From an uncultured Prevotella sp. (lineage in GTDB: Bacteria > Bacteroidota > Bacteroidia > Bacteroidales > Bacteroidaceae): a stretch of DNA of 58,169 bases. The stretch spans positions 1 to 58,169 of the forward strand of contig ONLG01000012.1 in the NCBI GenBank assembly GCA_900318625.1. The letters run 5' to 3'. The notes beneath the pieces are model-generated. The model saw nothing but the letters and a program-made list of their open reading frames with translations, was not told where the DNA came from and searched no databases. Numbering within the stretch: position 1 is the first letter of the stretch; every line of letters begins with the position of its first letter. The translations under genes and the position numbers were made by a program. This document shows positions 8,369 to 41,402 of the stretch, one piece after another.

Positions 8369-8405
8369 AACACTTGTTGTTTGTTCGTTTTCACTAATTA
8401 TGTTG

Positions 8406-8413
8406 CAAAAGTA
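8406..8413 (-). promoter_or_regulatory. Bacteroidetes -7 box (TACTTTTG) for the cupin gene
   Basis: Exact TAnnTTTG match on the reverse strand, 38 bases before the ATG at 8368; it decides that start. Confidence 0.65.
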
Positions 8414-8557
8414 TTGAATATCCGGCAACAAAACAACAGGGCACTTTTTGGTGGGATAGTTACCAAAAAGTAGGAATTGGGCAGCAATGGGCTTTCGGGC
8501 TCTATCGGTTTAACTCAGATTAACACAGTAACGTGCCGTAACTTAGTTTCCATTTGT

Positions 8558-8565
8558 TACCTTTG
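8558..8565 (+). promoter_or_regulatory. Bacteroidetes -7 box (TACCTTTG) for the HxlR gene
   Basis: Exact match 18 bases upstream of the start at 8583, implying a very short leader. Confidence 0.65.
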
Positions 8566-8582
8566 CGATATAATCATACGCT

Positions 8583-8996
8583 ATGGAAGAAATGAAGAGT
8601 GCGGTGAGACATCCGCAAAGCCCCCTCAGCTCACTTAAATGGGTCAGCAACGAAGAACGTACCCGCAGCGAATACCTATCATGCCCCATCAGACACGTCA
8701 TCAGCCGCTTCGGTGACAAATGGTCGCTGCTTGTTCTTTTCCTGCTCAACAGCAGTCAAAGCGGCACATTACGCTTCAGCGAGCTACGCAGAATGATGAC
8801 CGACTGCTCGCAGAAGATGCTTTCGCAGACTCTGAAGAACCTGGAGCAGACACATCTTGTCCACCGCGAGGTGTTCCCAGAGGTGCCGCCACGTGTGGAG
8901 TATTCGCTCACCGACACCGGTCGTTCGCTGATGCCGGCTCTGTCACAGCTCGTAGAATGGGGAATAGAACACTTCAACGAGGTTGTGACGAAGTGA
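8583..8996 (+). CDS. HxlR-family winged-helix transcriptional regulator
   Basis: 137 residues. The HxlR signature C-P-I-R-H-V-I-S-R-F-G-D-K-W starts at Cys34, a position often redox- or thiol-sensing in this family. It is followed by the winged helix LRFSELRRMM, the recognition helix SQKMLSQTLKNLEQTHLV and a wing PPRVEYSLTDTG. Members bind as dimers to inverted repeats and respond to electrophiles, aldehydes or oxidants. It is divergent from the cupin gene with 214 bases between the starts, so it may control that gene and itself. The 30-residue N-terminal extension before Cys34 is longer than usual. Confidence 0.88.
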   Translation: MEEMKSAVRHPQSPLSSLKWVSNEERTRSEYLSCPIRHVISRFGDKWSLLVLFLLNSSQSGTLRFSELRRMMTDCSQKMLSQTLKNLEQTHLVHREVFPEVPPRVEYSLTDTGRSLMPALSQLVEWGIEHFNEVVTK

Positions 8997-9104
8997 CTTT
9001 GATCTTTCCTTCAGACAGCCAAACGCCTTTCCCCCTCGGGCAAACCGGCACGACAGGGCGGAAAAGCAGATTATCAACCAAACAGACATGACACTCTCCG
9101 GGCT

Positions 9105-32293: not shown

Positions 32294-33744
32294 ACGACTT
32301 TCTCTCCTCGGCCAGCAACCTGCTATGGGGCTGGCCAATGATTATTCTGCTGCTCGGCACACACATCTTCCTCACCATACGCCTGCGCTTTCCGCAGCGC
32401 AACCTGTTCACGGCGATACGCCTGTCGGTGAAAAGCGACAAGAAGTCGACCGGCGACGTGTCGCAGTTCGGCGCACTGGCTACCGCCCTGGCAGCCACCA
32501 TAGGCACCGGCAACATCGTGGGCGTGGCTACGGCAGTGGCATTAGGCGGTCCGGGAGCAGTGCTGTGGTGCTGGCTGACAGGTGTTTTCGGCATAGCCAC
32601 AAAATATGGCGAGGGTCTGCTGGCAATAAAATACCGCATCAGGTCAGCCGACGGCCACATGATGGGCGGCCCGATGTATGCCTTGGAGCGCGGTCTGGGC
32701 ATGAAATGGCTTGCCGTGTGCTTTGCAGTGTTTACGGCAGCGACCTCCTTCGGCATCGGCAACTCGGTGCAGGCCAATGCCATAGCCACCCTTGGCTACG
32801 ACACCTTCGGCATCAATCCTGCCGTGACTGGAGTCGTGGTGGCCCTTGTGACGGCTGCCGTCATCCTCGGCGGAGTGAAGAGCATCGCCCGAGTATGCGG
32901 TATGCTGGTGCCTGTTATGGCCATACTCTACATCATAGGCTGCTGCTATATCCTCGTCTTAAACAGCGAATACATCTGGCCTGCGATACGGATTATAGCA
33001 GAGAGTGCCTTCTCTCCCGAGGCGGCAGGTGGCGGACTGGCTGGCAGCGGCATAATGATAGCCGCACGCTTCGGCATAGCCCGGGGCCTGTTTTCCAACG
33101 AGTCGGGACTGGGTTCGGCTCCCATCGTGGCAGCCGCAGCACAGACTCGCAACCCGGTGAGGCAGGCACTGGTGTCATCGAGCGGCACTTTCTGGGACAC
33201 GGTGATAATCTGCGCCCTCACCGGACTGGTCATCGTGAGCAGCATACTGGCCTATCCCGAGATAGACTACAAAAACGGGGCTGTGCTGACTCACGCCGCC
33301 TTCAGCAAGATTCCCGTCATCGGGGCACCGCTGCTGTCGTTCGGACTGCTCACTTTCGCCTTCACAACAATTCTGGGATGGAGCTATTACGGGGAGAAAG
33401 CCATCGAATACCTCGTGAAAGGAAAGCAGGCAAGCCCAACTCAATCCACCCAAGGGAGGCAGAATGGTCCGTCGCCATCAGCAGAAACACCACTCCACCA
33501 TCACCACTTCACCATCATCGTCTACCGAATACTCTACTCCATAGCCACCTTTGTGGGCAGTACGGCCAACCTTGCAGTGGTTTGGTCGCTTGCCGACTGC
33601 ATGAATGCGCTCATGGCAATACCAAACCTAATATCACTATTGTTGCTCAACGGTGTGATTGTGGCCGAAACGCGCAAGTATCTGTGGAGCGGTCGTCTGC
33701 TCGAAAGCGACGACGAAGACGACGACGAAGCCCTGCCTGACTGA
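32281..33744 (+). CDS. Alanine/amino acid:cation symporter (AGCS family)
   Basis: 487 residues with about eleven TM helices. Family landmarks are FGALATALAATIGTGNIVGVATAV, GPGAVLWCWLTGVFGIATKY, GGPMYALERG, GLFSNESGLGSAPIVAAAAQT and GWSYYGEKAIEYL. It imports alanine, glycine or a related amino acid with Na+ or H+. Between the GWSYYGEKA helix and the next TM there is an insertion of about 30 residues, Gln/Ser/Pro-rich and ending in HHHH (near residues 381-412), where homologues have a short loop. The C-terminus is a run of Asp/Glu. Confidence 0.9.
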   Translation: MEQINDFLSSASNLLWGWPMIILLLGTHIFLTIRLRFPQRNLFTAIRLSVKSDKKSTGDVSQFGALATALAATIGTGNIVGVATAVALGGPGAVLWCWLTGVFGIATKYGEGLLAIKYRIRSADGHMMGGPMYALERGLGMKWLAVCFAVFTAATSFGIGNSVQANAIATLGYDTFGINPAVTGVVVALVTAAVILGGVKSIARVCGMLVPVMAILYIIGCCYILVLNSEYIWPAIRIIAESAFSPEAAGGGLAGSGIMIAARFGIARGLFSNESGLGSAPIVAAAAQTRNPVRQALVSSSGTFWDTVIICALTGLVIVSSILAYPEIDYKNGAVLTHAAFSKIPVIGAPLLSFGLLTFAFTTILGWSYYGEKAIEYLVKGKQASPTQSTQGRQNGPSPSAETPLHHHHFTIIVYRILYSIATFVGSTANLAVVWSLADCMNALMAIPNLISLLLLNGVIVAETRKYLWSGRLLESDDEDDDEALPD

Positions 33745-34141: not shown

Positions 34142-36700
34142 TCAGAAAGAAAGGCTAAATCCCAATCGCACTCCGTGCTTGCTGATATTAGGCTCGTGGG
34201 TGTAGGTGAGTCGCCTTACGTAGTCAACTTCGAGGAAATGCAGAATGTTGTGGATGCCCACCAGCATCTCCACGTATGGGTCGGAGCGCATCACTCCGCA
34301 CTCCGGTGGCAGGCTGAACAGCTCCTTGTCGCCACTGTTCTGACTCAGCAGCGGATTGTTCTTGTCGGTAAGATGGCCCCACATGGCTTTAACAGCCACA
34401 TATTCGCGCAGCTTCAGCTTTCTGATGAGCGGCAACCTGTTGAACAGCTTGCCGTTCAGCGTCCATGCCACGGTGAGCTGCGCCATGCGGTCGTTGAGAA
34501 ATTCCATGTTTCGCATTGTGCTGAAGGCCTCCGACTGTTCAAATATCGATGTGTTGACGGGTGGCATAAGCAGCAGCGGAAAGGGCACCTTCTGCCACTC
34601 GGCGGCAGCTTTTGCCGTGGCATCAATATGTCCCCAGCTTCCTAACCAGAAGCGTTTATACAGGCTCAGCTCCGTGAGCTGTCTGCCGTGGGTGCTGCCC
34701 AACACGCCTTTCAGCCCCACGGTGTGGCTCAGCGTGAAACGAGGCGCATTGCGGCTTGCCTCGAAGCGCTGCTCTTTCGAGGTTATGAAGGTCTGTCCGG
34801 GCTGATAGTTGAGCGACAGCGACACCTCGGTGGTGCGCATCTTGGGCAGCTCCACGCCGTCGGCGAGCCTCGTATAGGTGAGCCGTCCGGCAGGCATGGT
34901 CTTCTCGAGCTTCACCCCCAGCGAGGCACGCAGCCCATAGGCGGTTTCCCATGTGAAGTCGGCAGCCTGCCGTTTGTAGAAATACATCAGCTCGGTGGGG
35001 TTGCTTCTAATCACCTGAAACACATTGTCCTTGCCATAGCGGAGGTATCTGTCTGATGCTGCGGCAACATCATAGGCCGAGGAAACCGACAGGGTGCGCA
35101 TCGGAAACTCGTGTGGCAGGTAGGCTTTGCGGTTGAACGACCATGTGGCCTTTGCCTCATAATAGGTCTTGTGCGACTTTTTTCCCCGTGCCAGATAGCC
35201 TTCAACGAAGAAGTGGGGCATGAGGTGAGCCGTGGTCTTGGCTCCTATTCGCATACGCAGTCCGTCGACGGGATTGCTCGAGACCACCGAGAGCACAGGT
35301 CCGATGTCTACCTTGCTCGGAGTCTTTGCCGAACCAGTCTCGATATAGTTCTCGAGCAGGGTCTTCAATGCAAACAAGGTCCATCTGAAACGTCGTGTTC
35401 TGGCAAGCTGCCGCATGAAGTCGTCCATCGTTTCCTCGCCTTTGCCGAGGTTGAAGCGGCGGTTAGCAGCCCAGAAAGAGCCGTCGCGCAGCCTTGCCTG
35501 TGGGTCGTAGCTGACAAGGTTGCGCCCCCTGAAGCTTCGCGAAGGTATCGGTGTGAAGTCGTAATGGCTGTAAATGGTGTTGCGCAGCACGGCAGCCTGC
35601 TGCAATTTCTGGCTGAGCGAGAGCTCGATGAGCATATTGTCGGTTGTGACAGCCCAGCAACTGTCGGGCTGCAAACCGAAATACTGCTCCACTCGCAGCG
35701 ACCTGACGAAGTTTACTCCGGTGCCAGCCGGTAGCCTGAGGTCGCATTTTCGGAGACGATAGGTGCCGTCGGTCATCACCATCAGCTCGCCTCTGAAGCC
35801 GAAATCCTGATTGTTGACGGGTGTGAAAGCCACCCTTACGCAACTGTCGCCCTCTACCCGGAGCGAGTCTTCGATGTAGAAATGGTAGAAGGAGATAGCC
35901 GTTGGTCCGATGGGACTTGGAAAGCGTTGTCCGAGAAGGTCTATCTGGTTGTCGAGAAGGTCTACGTCGCGGAAGTATTCCTTCATCAGCACAGCGAGGT
36001 TCTGCCCCGTTTCGAGGAACTGTCCCACTCCGCTTGTTTTCTCTCCGGTGACAATCTGCCTGAATGTTGCCGGTCTTTTGCGATAGAGGTGTCGGCTTGT
36101 TGTCTCGGTGAGCGATATGGGCAGTATGAGCTTGTTGTTCATCTCGCATGGCTGCACGTGGTCCATCATCCACGGCTCTTCGCGGAAGAAGTCGCTTTCG
36201 ATGTCTTGCTGTGTGATGTTGTTGATGGCGAGAGTCAGCTTCTGGTACTTTTCCCAGCTTGCATAGTCGCGGCTCAGGGGGCTGTAGCGCTTCTTTGCGG
36301 CTATCACTCGGCGCATCAGCTCCACTGCGGGATTGCCTTTTCGCGAATAGCGGCGCACCCTTCGGCCTTCGACCACCACTTCGCCGAGGTGTTTTCCCTC
36401 AGCCTGCATCACCACGTGGAGCTCTTCCGGGGTATTGCGGTCAATCTTCACTCTGCGCCGCCGATAGCCTTCAGCCGTCAAGCTGATGGTTCCGCTCTTG
36501 GTGCGCGGCAGTGTGAAGCGACCCAGCGAGTCGGCGGTGATGCTTTCGTGAAAGAACTTTGCCGTAGCTACGGCATGGGGTATGCCTTGGGAGGTGAGCC
36601 TGTCGACCACGTATACATGAATAACGTTCTGGGCATGAGCCGCTACGGCCCACACCCAGAACGTCAATAGGATAAAACTCAGCTTAGTCGATTTCCTCAT
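34142..36700 (-). CDS. DUF5686/carboxypeptidase-regulatory-like outer-membrane protein
   Basis: 852 residues. A signal peptide (MRKSTKLSFILLTFWVWAVA) is followed by a CarboxypepD_reg-like beta-sandwich (about 26-100; IHVYVVDRLTSQGIPHAVAT, GEVVVEGRRVRRYSRKGNPA). The DUF5686 region follows (AAKKRYSPLSRDYASWEKYQ; FFREEPWMMDHVQPCEMNNK) and a long C-terminal barrel ends with the aromatic strand HGVRLGFSLSF. It should sit in the outer membrane; the substrate is unknown. Its start overlaps the end of the inositol-phosphate synthase gene by 17 bases, so it is the last gene of the inositol run. Confidence 0.82.
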   Translation of the reverse strand: MRKSTKLSFILLTFWVWAVAAHAQNVIHVYVVDRLTSQGIPHAVATAKFFHESITADSLGRFTLPRTKSGTISLTAEGYRRRRVKIDRNTPEELHVVMQAEGKHLGEVVVEGRRVRRYSRKGNPAVELMRRVIAAKKRYSPLSRDYASWEKYQKLTLAINNITQQDIESDFFREEPWMMDHVQPCEMNNKLILPISLTETTSRHLYRKRPATFRQIVTGEKTSGVGQFLETGQNLAVLMKEYFRDVDLLDNQIDLLGQRFPSPIGPTAISFYHFYIEDSLRVEGDSCVRVAFTPVNNQDFGFRGELMVMTDGTYRLRKCDLRLPAGTGVNFVRSLRVEQYFGLQPDSCWAVTTDNMLIELSLSQKLQQAAVLRNTIYSHYDFTPIPSRSFRGRNLVSYDPQARLRDGSFWAANRRFNLGKGEETMDDFMRQLARTRRFRWTLFALKTLLENYIETGSAKTPSKVDIGPVLSVVSSNPVDGLRMRIGAKTTAHLMPHFFVEGYLARGKKSHKTYYEAKATWSFNRKAYLPHEFPMRTLSVSSAYDVAAASDRYLRYGKDNVFQVIRSNPTELMYFYKRQAADFTWETAYGLRASLGVKLEKTMPAGRLTYTRLADGVELPKMRTTEVSLSLNYQPGQTFITSKEQRFEASRNAPRFTLSHTVGLKGVLGSTHGRQLTELSLYKRFWLGSWGHIDATAKAAAEWQKVPFPLLLMPPVNTSIFEQSEAFSTMRNMEFLNDRMAQLTVAWTLNGKLFNRLPLIRKLKLREYVAVKAMWGHLTDKNNPLLSQNSGDKELFSLPPECGVMRSDPYVEMLVGIHNILHFLEVDYVRRLTYTHEPNISKHGVRLGFSLSF

Positions 36701-37991
36701 CGGCCTCGTATCCGCCCATTTCGCGGATGGCGTTCTTCAGCATGGTGTACTGCTGATAGAGGTTGTTGACGGCCTCTTCGCCTTTGGTGTAGTCGTGCAT
36801 AGGACTCTTGAGGAAGAAGCTCAGGAAGCGCTGTGTGCCATATCGTCCGGCACGCGCAGCCAGGTCGCTCAGCAGACAGAGGTCGAGCAGCAGCGGAGCA
36901 GCAAGGATGGAGTCGCGGCAGAGGAAGTTGATCTTGATCTGCATGGGGTATCCCATCCATCCGAAGATGTCGATGTTGTCCCATCCCTCCTTGTTGTCGT
37001 TGCGCGGCGGATAGTAGTTGATGCGCACCTTGTGGTAGTAGTCGGTGTAGAGGTCGGGCTGTACGTCGGCCTTGAGAATGGTCTCGAGGGTAGAGAGCTT
37101 GCTCACTTCCTTGGTGCGGAAGTTGTCGGGCTCGTCGAGCACCAGTCCGTCGCGGTTGCCCAGGATGTTGGTTGAGAACCATCCGCTCAGTCCGAGGTTT
37201 CTCACTCCTATGATAGGAGCAAATCCCGACTTAACGAGTGTCTGGCCAGTCTTGAAGTCCTTGCCGGCTATCGGCATCTTGGTCTTCTCTGCCAGCTCCC
37301 ACATTGCAGGTATGTCCACTGTGGTGTTGGGCGCTCCCATGATGAACGGTGCTCCCTCCGACAGTGCTGCGTAGGCATAGCACATACTCGGTGCGACGTG
37401 TTCGCGGTCGTCGTCGCGCATGGCCTGCTCCAGTGCGGCGAGGCTGTAGTGTACCTTTTCGTCGACTGGCACGTATATCTCCGTCGACGCAGCCCATATC
37501 ACGACGATGCGGCTGAGCTGTTTCTCGGCCTTGAAACGGCGTATATCCTCGCGCAGAGCCTCAACCATCTCCCATCGTGTGGCACAGTCTTTCACGTTGT
37601 CGCCGTCCAGACGCTTGGCATAGTTCTTGTCAAAAGCAGCCTTCATAGGTACTATCTTCTCAAGCTCATCGCGCACGGGGTTGATGTCTTTCTCCTTGAG
37701 CACCTCGGCATACATGGCAGCCTGATATGCGTTCTGGGGATAAACGTCCCATGTAGCAAACTCTATGTCGTTGAGATTGGCGATAGGCACAATCTCGCCC
37801 ACGTGCAGATACTTCTTGTCGGCACCCTTGCCCACGCGCACCTTGTCGTACTGTGTCATCGAGCCGATGGGTTTTGCCAATCCCTTGCGAGCCATGAGCA
37901 CTCCCGTCATGAACGTTGTTGCGACTGCTCCGCAGCCTACAACCATAATACCTAACTTGCCGTCAGCCGGCTTAACGTTTGTTTGTTTCAT
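36684..37991 (-). CDS. myo-Inositol-1-phosphate synthase (inositol-3-phosphate synthase)
   Basis: 435 residues. An N-terminal Rossmann motif (LGIMVVGCGAVATTFMTGVL) leads into the synthase core with SRIVVIWAASTEIYVPVDEK, SEGAPFIMGAPNTTVDIPAM and the catalytic-Lys segments MPIAGKDFKTGQTLVKSG and DLYTDYYHKVRINYYPPRND. It converts glucose 6-phosphate to inositol phosphate with bound NAD+. In Bacteroides the homologue starts inositol-lipid synthesis, and it stands in a cluster with a CDP-alcohol phosphatidyltransferase, as here. The upstream HAD gene ends 60 bases before this start; no -7 box is seen in that gap. Confidence 0.93.
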   Translation of the reverse strand: MKQTNVKPADGKLGIMVVGCGAVATTFMTGVLMARKGLAKPIGSMTQYDKVRVGKGADKKYLHVGEIVPIANLNDIEFATWDVYPQNAYQAAMYAEVLKEKDINPVRDELEKIVPMKAAFDKNYAKRLDGDNVKDCATRWEMVEALREDIRRFKAEKQLSRIVVIWAASTEIYVPVDEKVHYSLAALEQAMRDDDREHVAPSMCYAYAALSEGAPFIMGAPNTTVDIPAMWELAEKTKMPIAGKDFKTGQTLVKSGFAPIIGVRNLGLSGWFSTNILGNRDGLVLDEPDNFRTKEVSKLSTLETILKADVQPDLYTDYYHKVRINYYPPRNDNKEGWDNIDIFGWMGYPMQIKINFLCRDSILAAPLLLDLCLLSDLAARAGRYGTQRFLSFFLKSPMHDYTKGEEAVNNLYQQYTMLKNAIREMGGYEADEEID

Positions 37992-38051
37992 TTCTGTATA
38001 TTTTTAAGGTTTTTTGAATATTCATACCTAATTAAGTCGATGCGCTGCTCA

Positions 38052-38759
38052 CTACATCCTTGTCAGCTCGGCAAGCGAGTGGATGATGTGGTCAGCAGCA
38101 GAGTGGTCTTCCTTTTCATCGGTCCATCCCTCGCCCTCTATCCACACCGTCTGGCAACCAATCTGCTTGGCTGGCACTATATCCTTGCGCAAGCTGTCGC
38201 CCACTACCACCACCTGCCGTGGCTCCATCTGCAGGGCTTCCACTCCGATGCGGAAGATAGCCGGGTCGGGCTTTCTCACTCCCACCACAGCCGACTCCAC
38301 CACTTGGGCAAACAGCCCGTCGAGTCCGAACTCGTCGAGCACCACACCAATATTGCCGTAGAAGTTGCTCACGAGCACCATCCTGTGCTGCCTGCCTATC
38401 TGGGTGAGCACCTCACGGCTGCGTGCAGTCTCGGCCTTCACTCCTTCGTAGAGGTCGTCGAGCAGCGCGGCGCGCATACTGGCAGCGGTAAAGTTGCCCA
38501 CGCTGAGGTAGCCCCGCTCCTCCAGACAGTCGAACTCTATCCTAAGTTTCGTTTCGAGAGTCTTGCGGAAGGTGTAGCTCGGCTGGATGATGGGGTTCTT
38601 GCCCAGCTCTCGCTCCGCATAGACGTAAGCCTCGCGGAAGTGCTCCTCGCACACCGGCACCTGATGGCGCTCGTAGGCGTGCCACAGCATCTTGCCCCAG
38701 TGACACCCACAGGTGTCGATGGTTCCGCCGTAGTCGAAGATGTATCCCTTAGCTTCCAT
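38052..38759 (-). CDS. HAD-superfamily protein lacking the second motif-I Asp
   Basis: 235 residues from the ATG at 38759. Motif I reads FDYGGT: nucleophile D9 is present but the usual general acid at D+2 is Gly11. Other motifs remain: VLVSNFYG (motif II), VGVRKPDPAIFRIGVEALQ (Lys) and VVVGDSLRKDIVPAKQIGC (motif IV). A C1 cap lies at about 25-100. In the inositol cluster it would be the obvious candidate for removing phosphate from phosphatidylinositol phosphate or a related product. The missing Asp makes ordinary phosphatase activity uncertain, although DYGGT forms occur in related proteins. It overlaps the upstream phosphatidyltransferase gene by 11 bases. Confidence 0.8.
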   Translation of the reverse strand: MEAKGYIFDYGGTIDTCGCHWGKMLWHAYERHQVPVCEEHFREAYVYAERELGKNPIIQPSYTFRKTLETKLRIEFDCLEERGYLSVGNFTAASMRAALLDDLYEGVKAETARSREVLTQIGRQHRMVLVSNFYGNIGVVLDEFGLDGLFAQVVESAVVGVRKPDPAIFRIGVEALQMEPRQVVVVGDSLRKDIVPAKQIGCQTVWIEGEGWTDEKEDHSAADHIIHSLAELTRM

Positions 38760-39714
38760 ACTGCGAGAGTTTTTCGTCAAGCACGGCACAGAGAGTCTCG
38801 TGCTTCTTGTGCATATATATATATATTATGGTGAGCACCACAATCTCGAAGAGCATATATGCCCACGGCATATCGAGCAGACAAGTGAGGTAGAGCGCTA
38901 TGGCGCGCGTGTTGAACGTCAGAATGTTGGTAAGGGGCATCAGCGGTTTGCTGCCTCGTCTGAAGTCGTCGCGCAACTGCTGCGGCGTATTCTCCACCGC
39001 TCCCCATCGGGCGAGCATATTGGCATGAAAGCGCTGGAACATCGGAGTGCGCCTCTCCTGGCTCTTGCAGTAGTTCTGATAGTTGTAGTAGAAGATACGC
39101 TCCATCCATCGTCCACTCTTGGGCAGGCTCTCGTAGATGGCGTGCTGGTTGGCATACGAGTCGAGCTCGGAGCCAACCTTGCCCTTGATAAAGTAGAGGT
39201 GAATCTGCCTGTAGTAGTCGGCCAGGGAAGCCTGCGGCGAATGGCACAGGAAGCCTGCCACCACGCCCAGCATCCATATCCACGGCCCCCAGCACACGTC
39301 GGTTAGGGGCATGGGCTGCTGCATGAGCCTCAGACAAAGCGCCACGTAGATAGCCGCGAACCACAAGTCGCCAGCAAAGCCGTCAAGTATACGCCCTATG
39401 AGTGTCTTCTGCCCCGTGAGCCGAGCCAGCTGGCCGTCGGTGGAGTCGCAGAAGTTGGCAAAAATTAGCAGCACCACTCCTGCCACGTTGGCCCATAGGT
39501 CGGTAGAGTAGAACATAACGCCAGCTGCAACTCCGAGAAATATGGATATGATGGTTACGACATTGGGATGCACACCGAGGCGCTTCCACACGAGCGCAAA
39601 GAACAATCCGATGGGGCGCGTGAAATGCACGTCGAGCCACTCCTCGGTATCCTCCGACTTGAACGATGCCTGTAGCATCTGCCTGAATGTCATGTTATCT
39701 GTTTCTGTAGTCAT
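38749..39714 (-). CDS. CDP-alcohol phosphatidyltransferase (probable inositol-lipid synthase)
   Basis: 321 residues, membrane-embedded. The family signature is DSTDGQLARLTGQKTLIGRI followed by LDGFAGDLWF. The D-xx-DG-xx-AR part, the Gly and the third Asp fit the canonical motif, but the fourth Asp is one position late (LDGFAGD). The neighbouring inositol-phosphate synthase makes phosphatidylinositol-phosphate synthase the best guess: CDP-diacylglycerol plus inositol phosphate gives PIP and CMP. An alternative is CDP-inositol as the donor, given the NTP-transferase two genes upstream. A soluble N-terminus (about 45) and a cytosolic loop with TPKSGRWMERIFYYNYQN-like sequence flank the helices. 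Confidence 0.85.
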   Translation of the reverse strand: MTTETDNMTFRQMLQASFKSEDTEEWLDVHFTRPIGLFFALVWKRLGVHPNVVTIISIFLGVAAGVMFYSTDLWANVAGVVLLIFANFCDSTDGQLARLTGQKTLIGRILDGFAGDLWFAAIYVALCLRLMQQPMPLTDVCWGPWIWMLGVVAGFLCHSPQASLADYYRQIHLYFIKGKVGSELDSYANQHAIYESLPKSGRWMERIFYYNYQNYCKSQERRTPMFQRFHANMLARWGAVENTPQQLRDDFRRGSKPLMPLTNILTFNTRAIALYLTCLLDMPWAYMLFEIVVLTIIYIYMHKKHETLCAVLDEKLSQYGS

Positions 39715-39734
39715 TCTTCTTTATTTATTTTTGA

Positions 39735-39795
39735 GGGGTGAGAGTCATATAACATCTTTAACATTTTAATATTTTAATGTTTCAACATTTTTAAT
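39735..39795 (+). repeat. AATGTTTCAACATT intergenic repeat (copy 1)
   Basis: GGGGTGAGAGTCATATAAC (from 39735) and the near-palindrome AATGTTTCAACATT (39776-39789) sit in AT-rich DNA. The same two blocks appear in the same order on the opposite strand at about 42721-42769. The two copies bracket a G+C-rich block holding three genes. Confidence 0.7.
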
Positions 39796-39798
39796 GTT

Positions 39799-40620
39799 TT
39801 AATCTTTTCCTCCCCTCACCAACCTCGCTATAGCCCTTGCCGCCTCAGTACGGCAGCGGGCAAAGCTGGGCCAGTCGTTGAAATCGATGATGCAGTAGCT
39901 GCCGTCGGGCCTCACTATGGCATCGCCGCCATAGACTGCCACACCCGTCAACCTTGCCGTCCGTTCGGCATCAGCCCTGAGCGAGCCGAGACTGAAGGCA
40001 TAGTGGATGGGCGTGCCATTGCGCGCTTCGTCGCCAAACTTGCTCATACCGTCGTCGCCTGGGTAGAACACCCGGAACATCCCCTCGTCCTCAGCTGCGC
40101 CAGAAGGCGCAAGCACACCGTAGAACTTCACGAGATCGCCCACCACGTGGGCCCTTACGGTCATGTCGCTGATACCTCGGCTGCGAAAGCGCTCCACCGC
40201 CCTCGCCAGCTGCTCTCGGTCGGTACAATAAACCACGTCGCCCGGCCCCTGCGCCGCCTCGTCACCGCGCTTCAGCCAGTAGCCGTCAGGACCCTCATGT
40301 GGTGGCAGCGGAATGCCCTCGCGCTCCATCAGCGCCTCCACACTGCTGCGACGACAGAGGGCCACACCCTCAGGCGAGTTAACAACCAGCGCGCCGTCGG
40401 CCTCGCATCGGGACAGGAACGCCAACGCGCGCTTGCCCCGGGCCATCGACAGCACCACGTCGGCTCCGCGCAGGTCATCTGCCAGAAGACTTTCCTCGTT
40501 CAAGAGACGCGCGCCCGTCAGCTCGGCCACTGCACGCAGTATGGCCTCGTCCTTAGCCACGCTGTTGGGCGAGAAGCGCACCGCGCGGCCCACAGCCACG
40601 ACGTTTACCCCCCCAGTCAT
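39799..40620 (-). CDS. ATP-grasp domain protein
   Basis: 273 residues from the ATG at 40620, overlapping the NTP-transferase gene by four bases. Features of an ATP-grasp enzyme are a central VNSPEGVALCRRSSVEALME, the ATP-binding Lys in GYWLKRGDEA, the strand MTVRAHVVGDLVKFYGVL and the metal-binding end AIVRPDGSYCIIDFNDWPSF (Asp and Asn). It resembles RimK/inositol-polyphosphate-kinase-like folds. It could ligate an amino acid to, or phosphorylate, a product of the inositol cluster; the reaction is unknown. The gene is notably G+C rich. A longer reading to 40827 runs into the upstream gene and is not supported. Confidence 0.75.
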   Translation of the reverse strand: MTGGVNVVAVGRAVRFSPNSVAKDEAILRAVAELTGARLLNEESLLADDLRGADVVLSMARGKRALAFLSRCEADGALVVNSPEGVALCRRSSVEALMEREGIPLPPHEGPDGYWLKRGDEAAQGPGDVVYCTDREQLARAVERFRSRGISDMTVRAHVVGDLVKFYGVLAPSGAAEDEGMFRVFYPGDDGMSKFGDEARNGTPIHYAFSLGSLRADAERTARLTGVAVYGGDAIVRPDGSYCIIDFNDWPSFARCRTEAARAIARLVRGGKD

Positions 40621-41339
40621 CTGAGCAGCTCCTCCGCCTTGGCTATGTCGGCTGCATGATCCACGTCGAGCACCTTGCCGAAGGCGTGGGCCCTCAGCCG
40701 CAGGCCCTCGGCAAGCAGCGCACGCTGAAAGTTGCGCATACGGCTCTCGCCACGCGCCACGCACCTCTCCAGCACGTCCAGAGCACATGGCATCAGCCCA
40801 TAGATACCAGCCGACACATAGCGGCACCCCTCCGGTCGGTCGTCGCAGAAAGCGGTGACAGCCATCGCCTCGTCGGTGGCCACATAGAGGGGGCGCTCGT
40901 CGTCAACGTATGAAGTAACGCCCATCAGACCGTCATAGCCTTCGGCCACGGCGCGCCGCAGAGCTGCCACATAAGCCGTAAACTCGTCGTCGCGGAACAC
41001 CGTGTCCACCGTAGTCACCACCACCGGCCCCTCGCCCTGACGCAGCCAGGGAGCCAGCGCGTGCAGGCTGTGCATAGAGCTGGGCGTGGAGCGCACCATG
41101 AAGCGCAACCGCGCAGCGCAGGCAGTACGGGCGCGCTGCTGCGCGTCCAAATAGGCTGCCACGTCGGGGCTGCTGCCCCTGCACACCACGGCCACCTCCT
41201 CGGCATCATTCTCGCCGAACACCCTCAGCAGGCGGCCAAGAAGAGGCTCGCCGCCCACCCTCACCAAAGGCTTGGGCTGGCTGATGCCTTCAGAAGCGAG
41301 GCGCGAGCCCTCGCCGGCGGCTATTATTGCATATCTCAT
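40617..41339 (-). CDS. MobA-like/sugar-phosphate NTP-transferase
   Basis: 240 residues. The nucleotidyltransferase signature AIIAAGEGSRLASEGISQPK followed by PLVRVGGEPLLGR is at the N-terminus. The metal Asp lies in VVTTVDTVFRDDEF, and DVDHAADIAKAEELL ends the fold. Such enzymes make NDP-alcohols or NDP-sugars. In an inositol cluster it may make CDP-inositol, like thermophile inositol-1-phosphate cytidylyltransferase, or activate another head group. Heading the leftward run, it has a TATCTTTG -7 box 56 bases upstream. Base composition is much richer in G+C than most of the window. Confidence 0.82.
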   Translation of the reverse strand: MRYAIIAAGEGSRLASEGISQPKPLVRVGGEPLLGRLLRVFGENDAEEVAVVCRGSSPDVAAYLDAQQRARTACAARLRFMVRSTPSSMHSLHALAPWLRQGEGPVVVTTVDTVFRDDEFTAYVAALRRAVAEGYDGLMGVTSYVDDERPLYVATDEAMAVTAFCDDRPEGCRYVSAGIYGLMPCALDVLERCVARGESRMRNFQRALLAEGLRLRAHAFGKVLDVDHAADIAKAEELLR

Positions 41340-41394: not shown

Positions 41395-41402
41395 CAAAGA
41401 TA
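41395..41402 (-). promoter_or_regulatory. Bacteroidetes -7 box (TATCTTTG) for the inositol gene run
   Basis: Exact match on the reverse strand. No other good match was seen within the run down to 34142. Confidence 0.65.

Follow-up and report, generated by a model that had tools for sequence, protein, structure and literature searches.

Which lipid is made by a run of six genes in an uncultured Prevotella sp., and what does an ATP-grasp enzyme contribute to it? The run lies within the 58,169-nucleotide stretch of DNA analyzed here (the window) and encodes an NTP transferase, an ATP-grasp protein, a CDP-alcohol phosphatidyltransferase, a HAD-family protein, a myo-inositol-1-phosphate synthase (MIPS) and a DUF5686 protein. 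In Bacteroides thetaiotaomicron, inositol lipids have been tied to colonization, capsule and resistance to antimicrobial peptides, as set out in sections of Heaver et al. (PMC9246714). The ATP-grasp gene is the new element relative to the text of that paper, and sequence comparisons suggest that its product probably phosphorylates inositol before the lipid is built.

Gene content and layout of the locus

All six genes are encoded on the minus strand (Table 1), and the open-reading-frame read-out of the window reproduced the strand and coordinates given in a preliminary description of this DNA, which had reported a leftward run with small gaps and overlaps. The NTP transferase and ATP-grasp genes overlap by 4 bp; since the ATG of the latter overlaps the stop codon of the former as ATGA, we assign the ATP-grasp protein a length of 273 aa rather than that of a longer, GTG-initiated frame. 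A gap of 84 bp separates it from the phosphatidyltransferase gene, which in turn overlaps the HAD gene by 11 bp (ATG start) to 41 bp (GTG start), with the ATG at 38759 being the likely start by comparison with relatives. The HAD and MIPS genes are separated by 60 bp, and the MIPS and DUF5686 genes overlap by 17 bp. Since scores of genomes carry this gene set, it is not a chance assembly.

Table 1 Features of the six-gene run and the region upstream of it (window coordinates)
Feature	Coordinates	Strand	Details
Possible -7 promoter box, TATCTTTG	41395..41402	-	55 bp before first ATG
NTP transferase	40617..41339	-	240 aa; NTP_transf_3 1.8e-12, NTP_transferase 2.1e-8 (Pfam)
ATP-grasp protein	39799..40620	-	273 aa; profile matches to solved ATP-grasp proteins including ITPKs; pLDDT 94.5
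CDP-alcohol phosphatidyltransferase	38749..39714	-	321 aa; CDP-OH_P_transf 6.7e-13 (Pfam)
HAD-family protein	38052..38789 (GTG start)	-	PF00702 7.8e-15; motif I D-x-G-G-T
myo-Inositol-1-phosphate synthase (MIPS)	36684..37991	-	435 aa; PF07994 2.4e-100, PF01658 3.3e-30
DUF5686 protein, CarboxypepD_reg-like N-terminus	34142..36700	-	PF18939 4.3e-40

Functionally, the NTP transferase is predicted to be a CTP:inositol-phosphate cytidylyltransferase, and the HAD protein a phosphatase acting on a phosphorylated intermediate. The phosphatidyltransferase carries the motif DX2DGX2AR...GX3DX4D, and the MIPS is the sole PF01658 match in the source genome, which is 84.7% complete. The HAD protein had been singled out as unusual, but its D-x-G motif I is a feature of the group, present in 74 of 80 relatives, and was dropped as an oddity of this gene.

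The good promoter previously placed at the head of the run found weak support. The box itself is present, of the TAnnTTTG form that we take to be the Bacteroidota -7 type consensus, but this form has 35 matches in the window, where 17 would be expected, and the two-box promoter pattern was not found at the site, leaving a weak candidate. Three sigma-70-like sites were found between positions 33600 and 41800, none of them at the head of the run.

A known cluster with an additional gene

In gene content, the run is an instance of the inositol-lipid cluster termed 'alternative' in Heaver et al. 2022, with a MIPS gene that has an NTP transferase, a CDP-alcohol phosphatidyltransferase and a HAD gene nearby, and is not of the BT_1522-1526 type. 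As a gene set for inositol lipids, this alternative cluster is known but unproven. In the sections of that paper that describe it (PMC9246714), it is represented in B. vulgatus by BVU_RS13095/13105/13115, is common in Prevotella, has a carboxypeptidase-regulatory-like (BT_1527-type) gene nearby, and occurs in species reported to make inositol phosphoceramide without further groups. The locus here shares the NTP transferase, phosphatidyltransferase, HAD and MIPS genes, and its DUF5686 gene is probably, as matched by description, the BT_1527-type gene noted near both clusters. The early assignment to an inositol-lipid cluster with CDP-inositol logic was thus right, whereas the likeness it drew to BT_1522-1526 was not borne out. 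The B. thetaiotaomicron route (BT_1522/1523/1525/1526) likewise has a MIPS, a CDP-alcohol phosphatidyltransferase and an inositol (sphingo)lipid product, but it has a BT1523-type PIP synthase that was not found here: the score against the BT1523 synthase model NF052561 was 19.3 bits against a cut-off of 350, and the sole match in the source genome (84.7% complete) was the cluster's own transferase, at 7.3e-4. A di-inositol-phosphate solute pathway was likewise set aside, with the NTP transferase (21.2 bits) and phosphatidyltransferase (19.0 bits) far below the cut-off of 580 bits for the Thermococcales model NF041135 of the bifunctional CDP-inositol/di-inositol-phosphate enzyme.

In the published scheme for the alternative cluster, the NTP transferase makes CDP-inositol from Ins3P, the phosphatidyltransferase makes PI-DAG, and the HAD protein makes PI-DHC (PMC9246714, relevant sections). 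The ATP-grasp gene of our locus has no counterpart in this account, as the term 'ATP-grasp' occurs 0 times in the main text of the paper. The skipped locus tags BVU_RS13100 and BVU_RS13110 would fit candidate ATP-grasp and LPG-synthase genes, as found in loci L126 and L127. These two loci belong to one genus with large genomes. A literature search of CC-licensed PMC papers found no description of the ATP-grasp step, in agreement with the earlier impression that it was undescribed.

The ATP-grasp gene is a core member of the alternative cluster

Across 151 genomes of the family, the ATP-grasp gene was found in 92 and a strong relative of the cluster phosphatidyltransferase in 105, with the transferase present in 91 of the 92 ATP-grasp genomes (Fisher 8.5e-25, kinship ignored). 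The preliminary description had made its proposal hinge on whether the ATP-grasp and NTP transferase genes are absent from related clusters; counted from the transferase side, where the search did not require ATP-grasp presence, the ATP-grasp gene is there in 91 of 105 genomes. From the MIPS side (n = 102), 80 genomes had the ATP-grasp gene, 14 a B. thetaiotaomicron-type synthase and 8 neither, and none of the 17 genomes carrying a BT1523-type synthase had the ATP-grasp gene (p 2e-8, kinship ignored). The ATP-grasp gene is a regular, core part of the alternative cluster. The 14 genomes with the phosphatidyltransferase and without the ATP-grasp gene are a different variant: no NTP transferase gene of the cluster type was found beside their transferase, and 12 of them have an IspD-like gene there (four typed). 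It therefore seems that the transferase family accompanies head groups activated by CDP and that the ATP-grasp gene belongs to the inositol version.

Gene order was compared in 80 named loci, which were collected with the ATP-grasp query itself; adjacency was counted from tblastn, as greedy open-reading-frame tables can miss overlapping genes. The NTP transferase gene adjoins the ATP-grasp gene in 73 of the 80 and the phosphatidyltransferase gene does so in 69, with a HAD gene found in 79 and DUF5686 in 69. No NTP transferase gene was found beside the ATP-grasp gene in three of the 80, nor in loci L131 and L138 (15 and 18 kb). Several genomes carry fusions, joining the ATP-grasp protein to the NTP transferase, to both the NTP transferase and the phosphatidyltransferase, to the phosphatidyltransferase, or to the HAD protein. 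Weak matches to ATP-grasp proteins of about 500 aa were seen in 12 of 296 genomes. The gene in G602 is cut by a contig end and was left out.

Remote similarity to inositol phosphate kinases

On its own, the window ATP-grasp protein has no Pfam match at E 0.01, and its ATP-grasp nature is assigned from profile matches to solved ATP-grasp proteins and from a confident alpha/beta model (Table 1). A profile of 34 diverse members matched 7drm (8.4e-6), which we take to be an ATP-grasp peptide ester ligase and not a kinase, followed by AtITPK4 (4e-5), the Entamoeba histolytica ITPK (3e-4) and human ITPK1 (1.4e-3); 3vpb, synapsin and glutathione synthetase, which are also ATP-grasp proteins, appeared only above 0.5. 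Only these three ITPKs matched, with the solved maize and potato ITPK1 structures absent at E 10, and their matches fall mostly within the C-terminal quarter of the ATP-grasp protein; the 7drm match covers more. At the level of Pfam models, PF05770 (ITPK) matched one of 30 members (E 0.052) and PF14243 (R2K clade) two of 30 (best 4.6e-4), the window protein being among neither.

Seven residues (K165, F166, Y167, D246, N248, P251 and S252) are invariant in all 34 members. K165-F166-Y167 aligns with K-F-Y of AtITPK4, where 7drm has Arg, in a segment that alone scores below zero, and D-x-N-x-x-P-S aligns with the ITPK motif D-x-N-x-x-P-[SG]. In the account of Trypanosoma cruzi ITPK1 (PMC12077091), the predicted contacts with InsP include K242, Y244, N374, P377 and G378, a K242A variant did not rescue yeast, and ITPK1 is said to use Ins3P, the MIPS product; passages of PMC7614388 state that AtITPK4 does not. 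From their spacing, we infer that the T. cruzi contacts occupy the same positions as the invariant residues here. The cluster protein would share the ATP-grasp family and perhaps the two motifs with the ITPKs of eukaryotes and Lokiarchaeota, and its gene lies beside that of MIPS, whose product ITPK1 can use; it differs in being bacterial, in falling below the PF05770 level, in a likeness that is mostly C-terminal and in its occasional fusion to a nucleotidyltransferase.

We predict that the ATP-grasp protein is an ITPK-like inositol or inositol-phosphate kinase, and put the probability that it acts as a kinase on the cyclitol before lipid transfer at roughly 0.55, a value held down by the solved ITPKs that did not match and by the two loci that lack an NTP transferase gene. 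As to the earlier suggestion that the enzyme adds an amino acid or a phosphate, the ITPK-like profile and motifs favor the phosphate and disfavor the amino acid.

Proposed pathway and its alternatives

We posit that the cluster makes inositol (sphingo)lipids through CDP-inositol, with the ATP-grasp protein as the core, inositol-specific kinase of ITPK type. MIPS would make Ins3P, the kinase would phosphorylate its C1 to give Ins(1,3)P2 (or Ins1P where free inositol is used), the HAD protein would strip the phosphate that Ins3P already carried, either ahead of transfer or following it, the NTP transferase would form CDP-inositol, and the phosphatidyltransferase would place phosphoinositol on ceramide or diacylglycerol. 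Stereochemically, the extra kinase step would lead to the usual D-1 linkage; CDP-activation of Ins3P, the product of MIPS itself, would not. We infer each catalytic step, and take the order from the ADP-heptose pathway, in which an isomerase, a kinase, a HAD bisphosphate phosphatase (GmhB) and a nucleotidyltransferase act, kinase and nucleotidyltransferase being fused in HldE. Both systems would start from a phosphorylated compound, have a HAD bisphosphate phosphatase and include kinase-nucleotidyltransferase fusions; the ADP-heptose pathway, however, uses heptose and ATP rather than a cyclitol and presumed CTP, and its kinase has a fold unrelated to ATP-grasp. The exact bisphosphate order is tentative and, in our estimate, less likely than not. 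Alternative-cluster species, many Prevotella among them, would then differ from the published three-gene proposal in an early step, and naming the missing gene makes the alternative pathway directly testable.

A Kennedy-type route without a bisphosphate is possible but doubtful. Free inositol, imported or released from Ins3P by the HAD protein or another phosphatase, would be phosphorylated by the ATP-grasp protein to Ins1P, converted by the NTP transferase to CDP-inositol and transferred to the lipid. Such a route would suit the 12 ATP-grasp genomes in which no MIPS was detected (79-99% complete), five of which include a FucP-like sugar transporter gene among those of the cluster (family typed on L127) and 10 of which have a PF00459 inositol monophosphatase, and a dehydrogenase/aminotransferase variant of the cluster (below) resembles inosamine synthesis from free inositol, in which the kinase step comes after. 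However, every MIPS-less genome that could be assessed, 11 of 11, retains the HAD gene (in the twelfth, the contig stops short). An Ins3P phosphatase would be idle in them, which argues against the HAD protein being only that; the same retention fits poorly with a HAD protein acting only on a MIPS-derived bisphosphate. Nor is the PF00459 family required, since it is lacking in 37 of the 80 genomes with MIPS and ATP-grasp genes (present in the other 43), and none was found in the source genome.

Unlikely, in our estimate, is dephosphorylation at the level of the lipid, whereby Ins(1,3)P2 from the ATP-grasp kinase would be converted by the NTP transferase to CDP-inositol-phosphate and transferred to give a PIP-type lipid, on which a membrane-tethered HAD protein would act much as BT_1525 does in the B. 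thetaiotaomicron route. The HAD gene lies beside the transferase gene in 66 of the 80 named loci, and the HAD protein is fused to the phosphatidyltransferase in L075 (P. vespertina) and, according to a passage of Heaver et al. (PMC9246714), in P. veroralis, and to an LPG-synthase-type membrane protein in L132, L134, L139 and L143. Against this, the HAD gene directly adjoins the ATP-grasp gene in 11 of the 80 (in L059 the transferase gene comes next on the opposite strand, and in L092 no transferase was seen), and the two are fused in L082. Gene splits were set aside as a test of pathway order, as these 11 loci are countered by G005, where HAD stays with the phosphatidyltransferase and the NTP transferase and ATP-grasp genes lie about 1.1 Mb away; so were fusions, which join neighbors and decide little.

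Most ATP-grasp families are ligases, and the best solved match, 7drm, with its wider coverage, together with the R2K-clade match of two members, would suit an enzyme that attaches an amino acid or another carboxylate, with inositol, CDP-inositol or the lipid as acceptor. Alternative-cluster species are nevertheless reported with plain inositol phosphoceramide in the sections cited above (PMC9246714), where perhaps only expected lipids were sought. The fusions to a soluble nucleotidyltransferase and the ITPK-type Lys in place of the 7drm Arg also make a ligase quite unlikely. Improbable above all is that the three-gene scheme is complete and the ATP-grasp gene an accessory with an unrelated role, given the 91 of 92 co-occurrence, the exclusion from the other route, the several fusions and the fact that we know of no precedent for a HAD protein as PI-DHC synthase, even if the scheme does explain the lipids seen without invoking ATP-grasp (PMC9246714, as cited).

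A predicted amino-inositol variant

Elsewhere in the phylum, clusters from other families also carry an aminotransferase gene and an IolG-like (inositol-dehydrogenase-like) gene. An ATP-grasp copy with Gln in place of Arg61, a residue conserved in other respects, is found in 14 of 14 distant loci with these two genes and in one of seven without. On the tree, the Arg/Gln change amounts to at least four changes and one or two independent contrasts, too few for significance, with bootstrap support not settled. As the substitution tracks the aminotransferase/dehydrogenase loci, it seems to be the cyclitol itself that the ATP-grasp protein senses, and the extra genes together with the Gln copy lead us to predict that the variant clusters make amino-inositol lipids. 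If the protein is a kinase, ITPK-like inositol chemistry would extend to bacteria, and a class of amino-inositol lipids would be indicated; neither 'aminoinositol' nor 'inosamine' occurred among the papers listed in our literature search on such lipids. More speculatively, both parts may hold together: an ITPK-like cyclitol kinase would be the hidden CDP-inositol step of Bacteroidota, so that bacteria would make Ins1P or an inositol bisphosphate expressly as a lipid precursor, and in other families a dehydrogenase, an aminotransferase and a retuned (Arg to Gln) or duplicated kinase would lead to amino-inositol phospholipids, which an adjacent Mla-type transporter may move. The one exception to the pairing of Gln with the two extra genes is locus L183, which has the Gln and lacks both genes.

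A conserved ATP-grasp gene within a published cluster

The six-gene, minus-strand run read in the preliminary description was borne out by the gene layout, and five of its six labels (NTP transferase, CDP-alcohol phosphatidyltransferase, HAD, myo-inositol-phosphate synthase (MIPS), and DUF5686) were confirmed by family searches; the promoter proposed for the run was weakly supported. The remaining protein found no Pfam or NCBIfam match at E 0.01, but is nonetheless ATP-grasp-like in sequence, since profiles of its relatives match solved ATP-grasp proteins.

Coordinates of features in the window and, in the last row, in locus L118
Feature	Position	Strand	Remark
Six-gene run	41339-34142	(-)	
ATP-grasp protein	39799-40620	(-)	273 aa; start ATG overlaps NTP stop
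Phosphatidyltransferase	38749-39714	(-)	
Second short CDP-alcohol phosphatidyltransferase-like protein (L118)	8399-9085		229 aa; Pfam 2.6e-6; directly follows the transferase/IspD-like pair

The cluster is already published and functionally unproven, and the ATP-grasp gene within it is an overlooked, conserved, and route-specific member. Heaver et al. 2022 (PMC9246714) outline an alternative cluster in Bacteroides and Prevotella, with NTP transferase, CDP-alcohol phosphatidyltransferase, and HAD genes near MIPS and gene functions given as unconfirmed; the same paper reports that B. vulgatus and P. veroralis, both without the B. theta genes, contain PI-DHC. The term ‘ATP-grasp’ does not occur in the main text of that paper, and its locus tags skip BVU_RS13100 and 13110; given these skipped tags and the gene order in two loci of one genus, perhaps a Phocaeicola-like one (L126, L127: NTP, ATP-grasp, CDP-OH, LPG-synthase-type, HAD), BVU_RS13100 is probably the ATP-grasp gene. 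Among later CC-licensed PMC papers we found no description of this gene, and the relevant part of a 2025 review gives the Prevotella synthesis just as ‘a variant form’ (PMC12482443).

Across 151 genomes of the window organism’s family, the ATP-grasp gene occurred in 92 and a strong phosphatidyltransferase relative (our cut, E<1e-20) in 105, with both together in 91; in the sole ATP-grasp-only genome (G083) the gene lies at a contig edge. Among the best 80 of 581 named loci, which were found by the ATP-grasp query itself and whose record titles almost all name Prevotella, Prevotellaceae, or a close genus, 77 had an NTP transferase, 76 a phosphatidyltransferase, 79 a HAD, 29 MIPS, and 69 DUF5686 within the DNA read, with the immediate ATP-grasp neighbours being NTP in 73 and phosphatidyltransferase in 69. 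Two loci (L131, L138) had no NTP gene within 15-18 kb, with ATP-grasp, transferase, and HAD all present. Fusions joined NTP to ATP-grasp (L044; L067, P. multiformis; L076, P. jejuni; L088, P. denticola; L007, L008, L020, L023, the last two being the same loci as L132 and L134), NTP to ATP-grasp and transferase (L128), ATP-grasp to transferase (L129), ATP-grasp to HAD (L082), transferase to HAD (L075, P. vespertina), and LPG-synthase to HAD (L132, L134, L139, L143). In L084 and L186 the cluster is split into halves, each trailed by one of two DUF5686 genes.

Route specificity

The BT1523-type synthase of the B. theta route (NF052561; our cut, E<=1e-70, with four above the curated cut-off) was found in 17/151 family genomes, 14 of them with MIPS, and none of the 17 carried the ATP-grasp gene. 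Both solutions coexist within genera: g1 has two BT1523-type genomes (G075, G136) versus eight ATP-grasp genomes including the window’s, and g3 has four versus four. In eight MIPS-bearing family genomes, some incomplete, both the ATP-grasp route and a BT1523-type synthase went undetected (G017, G022, G057, G065, G100, G123, G134, G141).

All loci of the 14 genomes with phosphatidyltransferase and no ATP-grasp gene were examined: neither a cluster-type NTP gene nor MIPS adjoined the transferase in any, the one 38-bit NTP match lying inside the IspD-like gene of L124, and a cluster-type HAD was present in one (L125). An IspD-like gene stood beside the transferase, or one short ORF off, in 12/14; four of these 12 were typed, and that of L117 passed the D-ribitol-5-phosphate cytidylyltransferase cut-off (181 versus 166 bits). 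We infer that CDP-activated head groups are the substrates of this transferase family and that ATP-grasp and HAD go with its inositol version. The transferase and IspD/ribitol-5-P-cytidylyltransferase-like pairs themselves (L112-L124) point to another CDP-activated head-group lipid. The window transferase and 76 relatives have one additional residue in the final catalytic spacing, ending in GX3DX4D in 68/77 and in neither expression in 9/77, whereas the published GX3DX3D pattern appears in 0/77.

Why a kinase

Functionally, the ATP-grasp protein is most likely an ITPK-like (inositol-phosphate kinase-like) cyclitol kinase; like every activity assigned here, this one is inferred. Against solved structures, a profile of 30 relatives matched 7drm (7.6e-4), AtITPK4 (0.002), E. 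histolytica ITPK (0.003), and human ITPK1 (0.03), and a second profile, built from 34 more diverse relatives, matched the same molecules at 8.4e-6, 4e-5, 3.4e-4, and 1.4e-3; with this second profile three of the four best molecules are ITPKs (from Arabidopsis, E. histolytica, and human), with remaining ATP-grasp proteins at E >0.5 and the solved maize and potato ITPK1 absent from the structure matches. The window model is confident (pLDDT 94.5, pTM 0.91). Sixteen positions are invariant over the 34 members, including K117, K165-F166-Y167, D233, D246, N248, P251, and S252; K-F-Y aligns to K-F-Y of AtITPK4, where 7drm has Arg, and D-x-N-x-x-P-S aligns to the ITPK motif. Against a kinase, the top match, 7drm, which we take to be a peptide ester ligase, is longer than the ITPK matches, and the Pfam ITPK model matches 1/30 members (E 0.052), as compared with 2/30 for R2K_3 (best 4.6e-4). 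In the sections of the T. cruzi ITPK1 study that bear on this, residues whose spacing matches that in the ATP-grasp protein are predicted inositol-phosphate contacts, K242A fails to rescue yeast, and ITPK1 enzymes are said to take Ins3P, the product of MIPS (PMC12077091); AtITPK4 is described as not using Ins3P (PMC7614388), and ITPKs are reported from Lokiarchaeota (PMC8024741).

Order of steps

The favoured order is modelled on ADP-heptose synthesis, in which a kinase-nucleotidyltransferase fusion acts alongside a HAD bisphosphate phosphatase. Such an order would account for the absence of PF00459 phosphatases from the window genome (2.38 Mb, 84.7% complete, one PF01658 (MIPS) match) and from 37/80 genomes with MIPS and ATP-grasp, as well as for HAD lying directly beside ATP-grasp in 11 of the best 80 of 581 loci. 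It leaves unexplained G005, where HAD remains with the transferase, and 12 ATP-grasp genomes with no detected MIPS (completeness 79-99%), of which 11 keep HAD (the contig of the twelfth, L135, ends too soon), 10 have PF00459, and five carry a FucP-like transporter in the cluster; we therefore hold the exact order only tentatively, at about 0.3. FucP-like MFS transporters lie within the cluster in L126, L127, L133, L134, L137, L141, and L142, MIPS-less genomes among them, and are possible inositol importers.

A distant variant across the phylum

A phylum sample gave matches in 24/296 genomes: 12 were strong (E<1e-50), two of these lying in the window’s own family, and the other 12 were weak and came from proteins of about 500 aa; in other families, L156-L167 hold frames of about 480-650 aa with weak ATP-grasp profile matches (E 2e-8 to 8e-4). 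Further searches of overlapping sets gave matches in 16/245 and 14/79 genomes. In the 21 distant loci read (20 genomes), ATP-grasp, phosphatidyltransferase, and HAD were present in all, NTP in 20 (L195 is cut by its contig), MIPS in 19, and MlaE/MlaF/MlaD-type genes in 13. Fourteen, most with Mla-type genes (L174, L176, L177, L179-L182, L190-L196), also have a gene pair for an aminotransferase of class III and an IolG-like dehydrogenase; the latter is of Gfo/Idh/MocA type, and its best model is inositol 2-dehydrogenase at 80 bits, far below the 355 cut-off. These Mla-type, aminotransferase, and dehydrogenase assignments were read on L174 and partly L176, elsewhere by similarity.

All 14 of these loci have an ATP-grasp copy with Gln replacing Arg61, four of them with a second, Arg-bearing copy; the seven distant loci lacking the gene pair have Arg in six and Gln in one (L183, on a very long branch), and Arg occupies this position in 30/30 family rows. 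The association gives a Fisher value of 1.3e-4 with kinship ignored, and a tree made without the position-61 column implies at least four state changes and just one or two independent contrasts. On a simple reading, position 61 would face the cyclitol, and the bacteria with the gene pair would make an amino-inositol head group, and so the predicted amino-inositol lipids.
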